Source: Thermosipho atlanticus DSM 15807
GTDB lineage: Bacteria > Thermotogota > Thermotogae > Thermotogales > Fervidobacteriaceae
Assembly: GCF_900129985.1 (NCBI RefSeq)
Contig: NZ_FQXN01000001.1
Location: 372,001 to 436,000, forward strand
DNA length: 64,000 nucleotides
Direction: 5' to 3'
The stretch's first letter is position 1; each line of letters starts with the position of its first letter. Under the pieces are notes generated by a model, which was not told the DNA's origin, searched no databases, and was given only the letters and a program-made list of their open reading frames with translations. Below are positions 37,239-44,591 of this stretch, piece after piece. The position numbers were made by a program, and so were the translations under genes.

Positions 37239-39026
37239 TTATTCTGTTTCGTTCTTAACTATTGATTGAATTTCCCAAACCTTTTTATACAAACCTTTCT
37301 GTCGGATTAGTTCTTCATGAGTTCCAATATTTGTAACCATCCCTTTATCAAGAACCACTATTAAATCTGCATCTTTCACACTGGAGATTCTGTGTGAAAT
37401 TAGTATTGTAGTCCTATTTTTACTTTTCTTTTTAATTTCATTCCTTATTTTTTCTTCTGTTTCAGTATCAACAGCGCTTAATGAGTCGTCAAAAATTAAA
37501 ATTGGATATTCTTTTATTATAGTTCTTGCAATTGTTAGTCGTTGCCTTTGCCCACCAGATAAAGTAACCCCTTTTTCTCCGACGATGGTCTCATATTTTT
37601 GTTCGAAATTCATAATATCATCATGTACTGCTGCTGTTTTTGCTGACTCAACTACTTCTTCGTTTGTTGCTTTTATTTTCGTTATTTTTATGTTTTCTTG
37701 AATGTTTTTAGAAAACAAAAATGATTCTTGGGGTACGACCCCAATATTTTCTCTTAATGTTTTTTTAGAAATGTTTTTTAGTTCAATACCGTCAATAGTA
37801 ATTAAACCTAAGTTATAATCGTATAATCTTAATAATAACGAAATAATGGTACTTTTGCCTGAACCGGTAGAACCAAAAAAGGCTACTGTTTGACCATTTT
37901 TTATTTCAAAAGATATCCCTTTTAAAATTGGTTTTTCTTTTTTATAGCCGAACCAGACATCTTTAAAAACTATGTTTCCTTCTAATTTGATATCTTTTAT
38001 ACCCTTTTCTATATCTTCTTTTTCTTCGCTTAAAATTTCATTGATCCTTTTTAGTGAAACTTTAGTTTTTCCAAGATCTGAAAAAATTCTTCCAAGTTGT
38101 CTAATTGGCCACAGTAGCATTCCTATATAACTTGAAAATGCTACCAAAGTTCCAATTGTAATTTCCTGCTTGATTGCAAAATATGAACCAATTACTATGA
38201 CCATTAGAGTTTGAGTTAAACTTATGAAATCAGAAAGTGACCAAAACTTGGCAAATGTTAGTACTAAATTAAAGTCCAAATCTCTATATTTGTGATTTTT
38301 AATGTTAAATTTTTCTTTTTCGTAATCTTCCCTGGCAAATGCCTTTACCACTCGTATTCCTGTGATATTTTCTTGAAGAACAGTTGAAAGTTCTGCTTCT
38401 GCTTCATCTGCAAGTCTGAATTGTTTTTCAACTTTCTTAAAAAAAGAGTATGTTATTAAAAATGATACAGGTATGAAAATTGTTGAAATAAAAGCCATTT
38501 TTAGACTGATACTAAACATAATATATGCGATCATTCCGGCTAAAAATATAGTTCTTCCTATTTCAACAAATTGATTGACTACAAACTTTCTTACAGTTTC
38601 AACGTCGGATGTACATCTTTGTATAATGTCTCCAGATTGATATTTTGAATAAAAATGATAATCTGATTTTAAGATAGTAGAATATAAATCATCTTTAAGA
38701 CGTTTTGCAAGTGTTTCAGAAGCTTCACTTGCAAATCTACCTCTAATATACATAAATAATCCAGTTAAGATGCTTAGGGCAATTATAATTAATGCGGCAA
38801 TGAGTAGTTTTCCGGAAACTGTATTTTGAAACAATGACATTGTAAACAAATAATTTAACCATTTTGATTGAATTGGACTATTTCCAATTATAGAATCAAC
38901 GGTAATTTTTATAACAAGTGGTGAAATTACTGTAAATATCGAAGAGATTATAGTTGCAAAAATTGCAAAAAAATAAATTAATCTTTTTCCTTTCATATAT
39001 TTGTTTACCAATTGGAAATTATTCAT
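37239..39026 (-). CDS. ABC exporter half-transporter, TM287-like (degenerate-site subunit)
   Basis: 595 residues from ATG 39026, with aggggag upstream; an in-frame start ten codons earlier lies in the terminator region and has no ribosome site. Six membrane helices precede the ATPase domain. Walker A is FGSTGSGKST and the signature LSGGQRQ is canonical, but Walker B reads ILIFDDSLSAVD with Asp in place of the catalytic Glu. This asymmetry is diagnostic of heterodimeric exporters. The gene starts 16 bases after the T-run of an intrinsic terminator, so expression requires read-through of the attenuator described separately. Confidence 0.9.
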   Translation of the reverse strand: MNNFQLVNKYMKGKRLIYFFAIFATIISSIFTVISPLVIKITVDSIIGNSPIQSKWLNYLFTMSLFQNTVSGKLLIAALIIIALSILTGLFMYIRGRFASEASETLAKRLKDDLYSTILKSDYHFYSKYQSGDIIQRCTSDVETVRKFVVNQFVEIGRTIFLAGMIAYIMFSISLKMAFISTIFIPVSFLITYSFFKKVEKQFRLADEAEAELSTVLQENITGIRVVKAFAREDYEKEKFNIKNHKYRDLDFNLVLTFAKFWSLSDFISLTQTLMVIVIGSYFAIKQEITIGTLVAFSSYIGMLLWPIRQLGRIFSDLGKTKVSLKRINEILSEEKEDIEKGIKDIKLEGNIVFKDVWFGYKKEKPILKGISFEIKNGQTVAFFGSTGSGKSTIISLLLRLYDYNLGLITIDGIELKNISKKTLRENIGVVPQESFLFSKNIQENIKITKIKATNEEVVESAKTAAVHDDIMNFEQKYETIVGEKGVTLSGGQRQRLTIARTIIKEYPILIFDDSLSAVDTETEEKIRNEIKKKSKNRTTILISHRISSVKDADLIVVLDKGMVTNIGTHEELIRQKGLYKKVWEIQSIVKNETE

Positions 39027-39041
39027 GATTTCTCCCCTTTT

Positions 39042-39074
39042 AAAAAAAAATTCCACGGTTTGGACAACCGTGGA
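39042..39074 (-). terminator. Attenuator terminator in the ABC exporter leader
   Basis: On the minus strand a 9-bp stem (TCCACGGTT with AACCGTGGA; plus coordinates 39074-39066 and 39060-39052) with a 5-base loop is followed by nine T's (39050-39042). It lies between the leader ORF and the exporter gene. Its 5' arm plus loop (GGTTGTCCAA) is exactly complementary to ten bases inside the leader ORF. Confidence 0.88.
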
Positions 39075-39103
39075 GTTAATATTTCGAAAACAGATTATCG
39101 TTG

Positions 39104-39199
39104 TTATTGACTACAAACGTATCTTTTATTAGATGGTTGTCCAATTAGAACATCTAAGATATTTACATCATTTGAGCTTATTGCTACTCGTCTTCTCAT
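39104..39199 (-). CDS. 31-codon leader peptide of the ABC exporter operon
   Basis: ATG 39199 has gggagg eight bases upstream. The peptide starts MRRRVAISSND and ends KRYVCSQ, stop at 39104. It is basic at the start and has no membrane segment or signal. It lies between a strong promoter and an intrinsic terminator, in front of a heterodimeric ABC exporter. Codons 15-17 form one arm of a hairpin, and codons 19-22 contain the ten-base antiterminator. The arrangement matches leader peptides that sense ribosome stalling, such as BmrB before BmrCD in Bacillus. It might instead be an exported peptide, but the RNA elements favour the leader role. Confidence 0.7.
   Translation of the reverse strand: MRRRVAISSNDVNILDVLIGQPSNKRYVCSQ
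39129..39157 (-). promoter_or_regulatory. Hairpin and antiterminator segment inside the leader ORF
   Basis: TTAGATG (39157-39151) pairs with CATCTAA (39135-39129) to form a hairpin whose loop and 3' side hold TTGGACAACC (39144-39135). That ten-base segment can alternatively pair with GGTTGTCCAA of the terminator (39069-39060), which would prevent termination. The two pairings exclude each other. Confidence 0.75.
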
Positions 39200-39235
39200 T
39201 GGGCAAACCTCCCTTTGTTGTTTTTTTATGATTTT

Positions 39236-39264
39236 ATGATAACATTAGTTTACAAGTAAGTCAA
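39236..39264 (-). promoter_or_regulatory. Promoter of the ABC exporter leader
   Basis: Minus strand TTGACT (39264-39259) and TATCAT (39241-39236) with 17-base spacing and a TGT extended -10. The leader ORF starts about 37 bases downstream. Confidence 0.78.
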
Positions 39265-39366: not shown

Positions 39367-39549
39367 TAGATATGTTTCGTTTTAAAAAATTATTTGTGCG
39401 GTTGTATTTGTGCATCGTTCGAAAAAACATTGGAAATTACGAATTTAATTGTGAAATTTTTAATTTCACAAGCAAATTTTGGTTGTTTTCTGTTTCCTTG
39501 AATATATAATATATAAGCAATACAAAATATACAAAAAGGGGGGATATAC

Positions 39550-41715
39550 ATGGAAGATAAGAAGAAGAATCTTCACCATGAAGAGCATCAACACACCAAA
39601 GAACACGAAGGGCATGGGCATAGTATGAAACACGAACACTCAGAACATGAAAATCAACATGAATCTCATAAAAGTCATGAACACATGGAACATGCAGAAC
39701 ATGCAAAGCATACAGAACATACAGAACATACAGGACATGCTGAAGATGGGCATCATAATCATCATAGTCATCATGCCCATATGGTGGCTGATTTTAGAAA
39801 ACGTTTTTGGGTTTCTTTAATCCTTACTGTTCCTGTCTTAATTTTGTCACCGTTAATTCAAAAGTTATTTGGATTAGAAAAAGTTTTAACCTTTCCTGGT
39901 GATTTGTATGTGCTTTTCGGCATTTCAACATTAATTTTCTTTTACGGTGGTTATCCATTTTTGAAAGGTTTTTATGAAGAGCTTAAAAATAAAAAACCTG
40001 GTATGATGACACTAATTGCAGTTGCAATAAGTACTGCTTATGTGTATAGTAGTGTAGTTGTTTTTGGGCTAGAAGGTGAGATGTTTTTCTGGGAATTAGC
40101 AACATTAATTGACATTATGTTATTTGGTCACTGGATTGAAATGAAGTCCGTAATGGGAGCTTCACGAGCTTTAGAGGAACTTGCAAAATTGATGCCATCA
40201 GATGCACACAAATTGATGCCTGATGGCTCATTAGTTGATGTGCCTCTTGAAGAATTAAAACCTGGGGATATCGTTTTAGTAAAGCCTGGTGAAAAAGTTC
40301 CTGCAGATGGAATTATAATTGACGGCGAAAGTTCATTAAATGAATCAATGTTGACAGGTGAGAGTAAGCCAGTACATAAAAAGAAAAATGATATTGTAAT
40401 CGGTGGTTCGATAAATGGTGAAGGTTCACTTAAAATCGAAGTAAAGAAGACAGGGAAAGATTCATATCTTTCTCAAGTGATAGAACTTGTGAAAGAGGCG
40501 CAGGAAAGTAAATCAAAAACACAAGATCTTGCTAATAGGGCTGCTGTATGGCTAACTGGTATAGCATTATCCACAGGTGCATTGACTTTCTTTGTATGGA
40601 CTTTGGTGATGGGTAAAAGTTTTGTTTTTGCCCTTGAAAGGACTGTAACAGTTATGGTTATTGCATGTCCTCATGCTCTTGGTTTAGCTGTTCCACTTGT
40701 AGTAGCTGTTTCAACTGCTATATCTGCAAAAAATGGTTTGCTGATTAGAGATCGTGTGGCTTTTGAAAAAGCTAGAAATATTCAAGCTATCGTGTTTGAT
40801 AAAACTGGTACTCTGACAATGGGGAAATTTGGTGTAACAGATGTTGTAAAACTTTCAGACGATATAACTGAAGATGAAATATTGAGTTATGCAGCATCAG
40901 TTGAATTACATTCGGAACATCCTATAGCAAAAGCAATCGCTCAAGCCGGTAAAAATCGCATGAATGTAGACGATTTTAAAGCTATTCCTGGAAAAGGTGC
41001 AGAAGGTATTGTTGATGGGAAACATGTTATGGTAGTCAGCCCTGGCTATTTAAGAGAAAAAGGAATCAAGATTGAAAATGAAAAAATTAATGAAATGTTA
41101 TCTGCTGGAAAAACAGTAGTTTACTTACTAATAGATGATGAATTAAAAGGAGCAATAGGGCTTGCTGATATAATAAGACCTGAATCAAAAGAAGCAATTG
41201 CTAGATTGAAAAAAATGGGAATTAAATGTATGATGTTGACAGGTGATAATGAACAAGTTGCAAAATGGGTAGCTAAAGAACTGAATCTTGACGAATATTT
41301 TGCAGAGGTTTTACCACATGAAAAATCTCAAAAGATAAAAGAAATCCAATCACGTAATTTAGTTGTTGCTATGACTGGAGATGGTGTAAACGATGCTCCT
41401 GCATTAGTTCAAGCAGATGTTGGTATTGCAATTGGTGCGGGGACAGATGTAGCTGTAGAATCTGCTGACATCATTCTTGTAAGAAGTGATCCAAGAGACG
41501 TTGTTGCGATAATTGAACTTGCTAAAAAAACGTACAAAAAAATGGTACAAAATTTATTATGGGCAACAGGTTACAATGCTATTGCAATACCATTGGCAGC
41601 TGGTGTTTTATATAAATTTGGAATACTTTTAAGTCCAGCTATTGGTGCAGTATTTATGTCTTTGAGTACAGTTATAGTGGCTATAAATGCTAAATTATTG
41701 AAATTAGAACGTTAA
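39550..41715 (+). CDS. copB: CopB-type copper-exporting P1B ATPase with His-rich N-terminus
   Basis: 721 residues. The first 78 residues contain 27 histidines in HxxH and HH patterns, a metal-binding tail in place of CxxC domains. The P-type core has the actuator loop LTGES, the phosphorylation motif DKTGTLTMG, SEHPIAKAIAQ and GDGVNDAPAL. The transmembrane metal site is CPHALGL, which marks the P1B-3/CopB class (Cu2+ or Cu+ efflux) rather than the CPC of CopA. Eight membrane helices are expected. A strong ribosome site (aaggggggat) precedes the start. The gene is apparently monocistronic, with its own promoter and terminator. Confidence 0.92.
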   Translation: MEDKKKNLHHEEHQHTKEHEGHGHSMKHEHSEHENQHESHKSHEHMEHAEHAKHTEHTEHTGHAEDGHHNHHSHHAHMVADFRKRFWVSLILTVPVLILSPLIQKLFGLEKVLTFPGDLYVLFGISTLIFFYGGYPFLKGFYEELKNKKPGMMTLIAVAISTAYVYSSVVVFGLEGEMFFWELATLIDIMLFGHWIEMKSVMGASRALEELAKLMPSDAHKLMPDGSLVDVPLEELKPGDIVLVKPGEKVPADGIIIDGESSLNESMLTGESKPVHKKKNDIVIGGSINGEGSLKIEVKKTGKDSYLSQVIELVKEAQESKSKTQDLANRAAVWLTGIALSTGALTFFVWTLVMGKSFVFALERTVTVMVIACPHALGLAVPLVVAVSTAISAKNGLLIRDRVAFEKARNIQAIVFDKTGTLTMGKFGVTDVVKLSDDITEDEILSYAASVELHSEHPIAKAIAQAGKNRMNVDDFKAIPGKGAEGIVDGKHVMVVSPGYLREKGIKIENEKINEMLSAGKTVVYLLIDDELKGAIGLADIIRPESKEAIARLKKMGIKCMMLTGDNEQVAKWVAKELNLDEYFAEVLPHEKSQKIKEIQSRNLVVAMTGDGVNDAPALVQADVGIAIGAGTDVAVESADIILVRSDPRDVVAIIELAKKTYKKMVQNLLWATGYNAIAIPLAAGVLYKFGILLSPAIGAVFMSLSTVIVAINAKLLKLER

Positions 41716-43086: not shown

Positions 43087-44591
43087 ATGAAAACATATTG
43101 GGAATTTTTAAAAACAAAAAGATTTGAATTTGTCTTACTTCTTATTTTTTCAAGTGTTCTAAGTTTCTTTGAAGGCTTAATTCAACCATTAATGGTAAAA
43201 TGGTTATTTGATGAGGCTGTATTAAAGTTGAACTTTCGAAAATTTGTACTTTTAAGTATAGTATACCTTGCACTTGGATTAATATTTGTGCTACTTTTTT
43301 ATATAAACAGTCTTTGGAAAAAAAGGTATGAAAATAAAGTAGTATTAAATCTTGAATCTGAACTTCTAAAAAAAAACTTTTAATTATGATTTAAAAGAAT
43401 TTACCAAAAAAGGGGCGGGGTATTTTATAAATTCCATTCACAAAGATGTTAATGAAGGCGTTGTTCCAATGATTAGAATGACGATAAATCTAGTTTCAAT
43501 GATTGTATCGGAAATTGCGTTACTACTTGCGATGTTTTTTATTTCATGGAGAGCATCTTTGGTGTTATTTGTGGTTATTCCGCCATTACTGTATTTTTCA
43601 AATGTTATAAGCCAAAAAGTTAAAAAGAAAACATCACTTGAAAGAGAAAAGGAAGGAATTTATACAAGTTTTCTAGCAAGTGTTCTTAAATCATTTAAAA
43701 TTATGAGAACTTTTAGTTTTATATTTGATTTTGTAACATTAAAGCACAGGGAAATTTTAGAAGAGTATTTAAACAGTAGGTTTGAAAGTTTTAAGGCTGT
43801 TAAATCAAGTCAAATGTTAGGTGACATTATTCGAAACACAGCAGATACTCTTTCACTTATAGTCTCTGGATATTTTGTTTTAATTGGAAAGTTAAGTTTT
43901 GGTGGGTTTGTAGCGATAATAAACACATTCTGGAGGGCAGTTTCTTCTCTTTTTGGAATTGTTCAGGCTATTCCAGAATTTCACAGGTATTCACAAATAC
44001 TTGAAAGAATAAAAAGTTTATTAAATACTAAACAGAAAGAGCACTTTGAATTGGATGATAAAGTAATTTTAAAAGATGTAAAACTTTCTTATGATGGAAA
44101 TAAAGTAATCGATATAAATAATATAGAAATAAAACCTGGGAATAAGGTGTTAATTTCAGGTGAAAATGGTACAGGAAAGACAACACTTTTAAATATAATA
44201 TCTGGATATTTGTCGCCAGATAGTGGAAAAGTAATAAGGCCAAAAAAAAGTCGTATCAATAACTGCACCAGTTGAACTTCCAGAAATTCCCATAAAAGAA
44301 CTTATAAAGGATGAAAAATTGATTGAAAGTCTTGGTTTAGAAAAATTAAAGGAAAAGACACCATCCAACCTTTCTGCAGGAGAAAAACAAAAGGTTGCTA
44401 TTGGTATAGCGCTTGAAAAAGATGCAGATTTATATATATTTGATGAACCACTTGCAAATATAGATGAGCAAAGTAAAGAAAAGATAATAAAGTTAATATT
44501 TGAAAAATTAAATTCTAAAACGTTAATAATGGTACTTCATGGAGAAAAAGAATTTCACAGCTTATTTGATACAAAGATTAAGTTATTATAA
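43087..44591 (+). pseudogene. ABC exporter gene (TMD-NBD) with two poly(A) frameshifts
   Basis: Three consecutive frames together encode one ABC exporter of about 500 residues. Frame one (43087-43383, strong ribosome site gaggagggg) has the first membrane helices. It breaks at nine A's (43368-43376 region); with eight A's it continues as KTFNYDLKEFTKKGAGYFINS in the frame of 43469-44275, which holds the other helices and Walker A SGENGTGKTTLL. That frame breaks at eight A's near 44242-44249; with seven it continues as VVSITAPVELPEIPIKEL into 44319-44591, with signature NLSAGEKQ and Walker B YIFDEPLANID. All ABC motifs are otherwise intact, so decay is recent, or the A-runs are sequencing errors or sites of transcript slippage. 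Confidence 0.8.

Follow-up and report, generated by a model that had tools for sequence, protein, structure and literature searches.

Ribosome-controlled leaders of resistance genes

Several attenuators that respond to the state of a ribosome on a short upstream open reading frame (uORF) are already known in Bacillota. In Bacillus subtilis, the bmrB leader of bmrCD is induced by lincomycin, erythromycin, and chloramphenicol, and its translation is required for this (PMC4191407). The predicted bmrB structures do not use the Shine-Dalgarno (SD) sequence of the leader, since they lie within nucleotides 60-162 of bmrB, and the role of the predicted anti-antiterminator was left unclear in that study (PMC4191407). 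In the case of the B. subtilis vmlR leader, an arrested uORF ribosome blocks the anti-antiterminator, the antiterminator forms, and transcription reads through (PMC9226507); Rli53-lmo0919 of Listeria (Dar 2016, as summarized in the review PMC8079631) is described as acting alike, with an arrested uORF ribosome blocking the anti-antiterminator and giving read-through. A further Listeria leader, Rli59-lmo1652, contains a uORF in front of an ABC transporter and shows terminator read-through with several translation inhibitors, with the details of its regulation missing according to the same review (PMC8079631). Finally, the ABC-leaders of Naville and Gautheret are predicted attenuators in front of ABC-transporter genes, among them that of a lactobacillar multidrug exporter; the available text of that paper was not found to describe a ribosome-start mechanism, and Thermotog- appears nowhere in it (PMC2965389). 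No description of such a switch in Thermotogota was found in the open-licence literature.

Leader architecture in the window

The window, that is, the whole 64,000-nucleotide stretch of DNA analyzed here, contains on its minus strand a leader in front of two exporter genes. Its parts are as follows, with the SD sequence taken from direct reading.

39236-39264, minus strand: promoter, with -35 TTGACT at 39264-39259, a 17-nt spacer, and an extended -10 TGTTATCAT ending at 39236
39208-39213, minus strand: leader-ORF SD sequence, GGGAGG
39199-39209, minus strand: s1, GGTTTGCCCAA, the anti-antiterminator segment between SD and start codon, degenerate in the window, placed by comparison and by covariation with s2
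39104-39199, minus strand: leader ORF of 31 codons (31 aa, MRRRVAISSNDVNILDVLIGQPSNKRYVCSQ), peptide sequence not conserved
39129-39157, minus strand: hairpin enclosing s2 (TTAGATG at 39157-39151, CATCTAA at 39135-39129), not conserved
39135-39144, minus strand: s2, the antiterminator segment TTGGACAACC, spanning +55 to +64 when counted from the A of the leader start codon
39060-39069, minus strand: s3, GGTTGTCCAA, complementary to s2 and covering the terminator loop and the upper part of the 5' arm
39042-39074, minus strand: intrinsic terminator TCCACGGTTGTCCAAACCGTGGA, with the stem-loop at 39074-39052 followed by nine T at 39050-39042
37239-39026, minus strand: first exporter subunit, ABC permease/ATPase of 595 aa
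35418-37211, minus strand: second exporter subunit, ABC permease/ATPase of 597 aa

Direct reading of the minus strand bore out the promoter, leader ORF, ten complementary bases, nine-T terminator, and exporter start listed in the first-pass annotation: the ten bases TTGGACAACC (39144-39135) are the exact complement of GGTTGTCCAA (39069-39060), and the ATG of the first exporter gene lies at 39026, downstream of the terminator. Of 2000 dinucleotide-shuffled leaders, only 5 contained 9 nt or more complementary to the tested stretch of terminator 5' arm and loop, so that the terminator/antiterminator part stands above chance. A 7-bp hairpin of the TTAGATG/CATCTAA kind, by comparison, was carried by 168 of 2000 shuffled ORFs (8.4%), and the first hairpin alone is therefore not above chance. 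A search of Rfam at the gathering score returned no match in the window; for the leader, no hit came near threshold, and nothing convincing appeared at permissive thresholds. Such escape from family searches would follow if the logic of these leaders is conserved while their sequences diverge.

The layout has a short ORF, a terminator, an antiterminator, a predicted anti-antiterminator, and a heterodimeric multidrug ABC exporter in common with bmrB-bmrCD (PMC4191407). Compared by description, the two differ in that bmrB has 53 codons and its terminator inside the ORF, whereas the terminator in the window follows the ORF and s1 is the segment from SD to ATG (PMC4191407). The Rli53 (as reviewed in PMC8079631) and vmlR (PMC9226507) leaders share with the thermotogal ones an anti-antiterminator that overlaps the uORF; however, their uORFs have three codons and their targets are ABC-F resistance proteins, whereas the thermotogal leaders carry ORFs of 16-39 codons before a membrane exporter (PMC8079631, PMC9226507). 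The likeness to Rli59-lmo1652, drawn from the description in the review only, is that of a uORF-containing leader of an ABC transporter (PMC8079631), and that to the ABC-leaders of Naville and Gautheret, as far as the available text of the paper describes them, is that of attenuators predicted upstream of ABC transporters (PMC2965389).

Conservation among relatives

An orthologue of the first exporter gene occurs in nine of the 103 Thermotogota genomes, all of the family of the window, with the placement of the relatives in Fervidobacteriaceae and Thermotogota made by kinship. The upstream region was readable at eight of the nine orthologous loci (L004-L011), the ninth (L012) ending at a contig edge. 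In all eight, promoter, SD, short ORF, s1, s2, terminator with s3, and exporter follow in the same order: the promoter pattern TTGAC[AT]-16/18-TA...T precedes the leader in 8/8, a leader ORF of 16-39 codons with an SD is likewise present in 8/8, and an intrinsic terminator stands between promoter and structural gene, those of L010 and L011 having interrupted U-tracts and being found by eye. Between SD and ATG, s1 reads GGTTGTCC or GGTTGCCC in most relatives and GGTTGCTC in L011, with the window's own s1, GGTTTGCCC, being degenerate; s2 reads GGACAACC or GGGCAACC, and GGACAGCC in L008. In L006-L009, TGGAG follows s2 after 4-6 nt and can lengthen the pairing to CTCCA of the terminator; the window leader is without this extension. 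The stop codon shifts and the leader peptide diverges (starting with MRIR, MRIS, MDKQ, MINS, MKMT, MVGT, or MVGI in relatives), with the distance from start codon to s2 remaining roughly constant and s2 beginning at +44 to +57 in the thermotogal loci. The comparison of upstream regions that had been proposed as a check retrieved the short ORF and terminator in all eight loci, but not the hairpin of codons 15-24 that had been expected with them.

In L010 and L011, the leader ORF ends after only 16 codons with its stop codon immediately ahead of s2, and a terminating ribosome would thereby cover s2 itself.

The leader was also sought at other genes and in more distant homologues. Among 103 genomes of the phylum, the exact s1-ORF-s2 pattern had three matches, all at the orthologue, and the terminator pattern five, each at the orthologue and none at other genes. 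Several clostridial homologues show the same order with different segment sequences, for example GGTCGTG/CACGACC and GGTTGTAC/GTACAACC, and in several cases none or almost none of the shuffles matched the joint energy of their s1:s2 and s2:s3 duplexes. In many other exporter homologues, such a leader was not found by the joint-duplex shuffle scan, which makes the association of leader and exporter widespread but not universal. A search for exact w/rc(w)/w repeats did not detect several genuine leaders, in which G-U pairs and bulges break the exact match.

Two tandem terminators were seen between leader ORF and exporter in the clostridial homologues L043, L046, L051, L053, and L060, the second of which may provide another layer of control.

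Covariation of the alternative helices

Each segment was placed in its best-complementing register, and both helices covary strongly, also with the clostridial homologues included. For s1:s2 (15 sequences), 94.8% of cells are paired and two-sided changes occur at 7 of 9 pairs; the covariation score is 0.648 against 0.260 when shuffled and at most 0.148 when slid, the slid control favoring structure because the s2 registers were chosen by their fit to s1. For s2:s3 (10 sequences), 94.4% are paired, with two-sided changes at 6 of 9 pairs and a score of 0.506 against 0.231 when shuffled, in a set that leaves out loci with a bulge or weaker fit, an omission that favors structure. Shuffles of the linker, in which complements are searched anew each time and which thus carry less register bias than the slid control, reached the observed joint duplex energy in 0 of 100 in each of the seven thermotogal leaders scored. 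Overall, the family has mutually exclusive anti-antiterminator, antiterminator, and terminator helices, weakly so for the window's own s1. This conservation and covariation support what the first-pass annotation had recognized, namely a terminator/antiterminator under translational control that precedes a heterodimeric ABC exporter and follows the same broad logic as bmrB-bmrCD; the conserved partner of s2, however, is the SD-ATG segment s1, not the hairpin named there.

Folding with a ribosome footprint

Transcripts ending just before the 3' arm of the terminator were folded with a footprint of -14 to +15 around the P-site codon, or of -16 to +15 at the start codon where free and covered leaders were compared. 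Without a ribosome, s1:s2 has a probability of 0.96-1.00 in L005-L010; with the start codon covered, s2:s3 reaches 0.32-0.68. Scanned codon by codon, s2:s3 in the family is OFF without a ribosome, ON at codons 1-5, and mostly OFF thereafter apart from a lower second maximum around codons 12-16; it falls to zero once the ribosome covers s2. A short ORF with a ribosome site (an SD in 8/8 loci) is present, the occupancy of which selects the structure in the footprint model. L011 and the window leader deviate from the clean pattern. For ribosome-free L045 and L053, the prediction is ON as long as the terminator 3' arm has yet to be transcribed, and the same holds for L043 at 37 °C. In equilibrium folds of the full-length leader, the terminator is favored in every case but L007 and L053, and the choice between terminator and antiterminator must hence be kinetic and co-transcriptional.

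The window copy is among the weakest, as its own s1 is degenerate: its s1:s2 duplex has -10.8 kcal/mol versus about -20 in relatives. In its free nascent leader, s2:s3 forms at 16% at 37 °C and at 55% at 65 °C, the temperature to which the energy parameters were extrapolated, and the codon scan gives ON at codons 1-2, 5-8, and 12-14. This copy may be leaky, partly reliant on the local hairpin, or decaying.

Proposed mechanism

Because s1:s2 and s2:s3 covary and footprint folds are ON mainly at codons 1-5, the leader is most likely a ribosome-mediated transcription attenuator that acts on a heterodimeric ABC exporter and senses ribosomes arrested at or near leader initiation, in the way set out above for Rli53 and vmlR. 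Three rival segments would be involved: s1 at SD-ATG of the leader ORF, s2 some 45-60 nt farther along, either within that ORF or shortly behind it, and s3 in the 5' arm and loop of the terminator. With no ribosome present, or once the pioneer ribosome has gone, s1 would pair with s2, s3 would enter the terminator, and transcription would stop at a leader transcript about 185 nt long; a ribosome seated on s2 would likewise leave the terminator free to form. Arrest at the start codon, or before the ribosome has moved beyond about codon five, as would be expected from inhibitors of initiation or early elongation, would mask s1, s2 would pair with s3 before the 3' arm of the terminator is made, and RNA polymerase would enter the exporter genes. 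In the window copy, s1:s2 is weakened, and the local hairpin may help to shield s2. Translation of the leader, arrest of its ribosome by drugs, and induction of the exporter by antibiotics are presumed steps of this scheme. If they hold, antibiotic-responsive uORF attenuation would reach a deep-branching thermophilic phylum, by a mechanism that differs from the one first noted, and the rule that mainly ribosomes at codons 1-5 switch the leader ON would predict which translation inhibitors should induce the pump.

A wider form of this reading, to which somewhat less than even weight is given, is that exporters of this family in Bacillota and Thermotogota share a family-wide sensor of start-codon occupancy. 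Its leaders would diverge rapidly, with the SD/start segment serving as the anti-antiterminator; it would report only ribosomes trapped while initiating or within codons 1-5, independently of the peptide, and would have come to Thermotogota with the exporter by horizontal transfer.

Alternative readings

The first-pass annotation had the local hairpin in codons 15-24 shield the ten bases until it is opened by ribosome stalling at codons 15-17. That hairpin is present in the window, where at 37 °C it forms with a probability of about 0.5 in the nascent leader when no ribosome is bound, and another protector would make sense there because s1 is degenerate; it is possibly a lineage-specific protector of s2. 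It is missing, however, in the same-genus relative L005 and in the other relatives, and hairpins of its kind arise at the chance level given above. The stall site fares no better: with a ribosome at codon 15, which covers the 5' end of s2, s2:s3 in the window leader drops to 17%, and at codons 16-17, where nearly all of s2 is covered, to 0%, so that only stalls near codons 12-14 would fit, as against codons 1-5 in the family. This reading is accordingly judged improbable.

The diverging leader peptide bears on two further readings. As no drug- or amino-acid-specific arrest sequence is visible in it, the same RNA logic might serve as a general sensor of translation rate (starvation, cold, or slow early elongation) rather than of drugs, and slow early elongation would act alike on a start-segment switch; we consider this rather unlikely, though the strongest of the competing readings, given that the controlled genes encode a multidrug-type exporter and that antibiotics acting on the ribosome elicit a response from related ABC-transporter leaders in Bacillus and Listeria (PMC4191407, PMC8079631). 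Attenuation specific to an amino acid, via the arginine codons AGA AGA CGA at codons 2-4 of the window leader, would place the ribosome inside the ON range of the family, but the peptides of relatives hold no conserved amino acid run, and this candidate was rejected on their divergence as very improbable. Equally hard to credit is a constitutive weak terminator with chance complementarity and no switch, against which stand eight conserved loci in three genera with both alternative helices covarying. An attenuator responding to arrest at the leader start is thus preferred.

Identity and history of the exporter

The exporter had been called TM287/288-like, a label that fits only if taken broadly, as meaning any heterodimeric ABC exporter. 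Orthology to TM287/288 was ruled out, as another pair in the same genome is closer to TM_0288: the second gene of that pair (G000:C2:266311-269849) matches it with 562 bits, versus 363 bits for the second gene of the window. The true orthologous pair (L117:1400-1812, G000:C2) lies directly behind a MarR-family gene, with no attenuator seen before it; since it follows the MarR gene, the two exporters of one genome are apparently under different control.

Relatives of the window exporter with 40-50% identity are found mainly in Bacillota, in a scan that omits records near the window's genome. In a midpoint-rooted tree with poorly supported deep forks, the thermotogal proteins sit among Bacillota relatives, separated by long branches from thermotogal paralogues, which suggests that the exporter was gained horizontally.

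Neighboring features

A perfect inverted repeat, TTGTGAAATT-TTT-AATTTCACAA, lies at 39450-39472, about 80 bases before a divergent P-type ATPase gene (39550-41715) with a His-rich N-terminus. It is operator-like in appearance; exact copies are absent from the rest of the genome, where just two copies with three mismatches occur. Farther along, at 43087-44591, three successive ORFs of 98, 268, and 90 aa on the plus strand look like a broken gene, the second and third matching parts of an ABC transporter.
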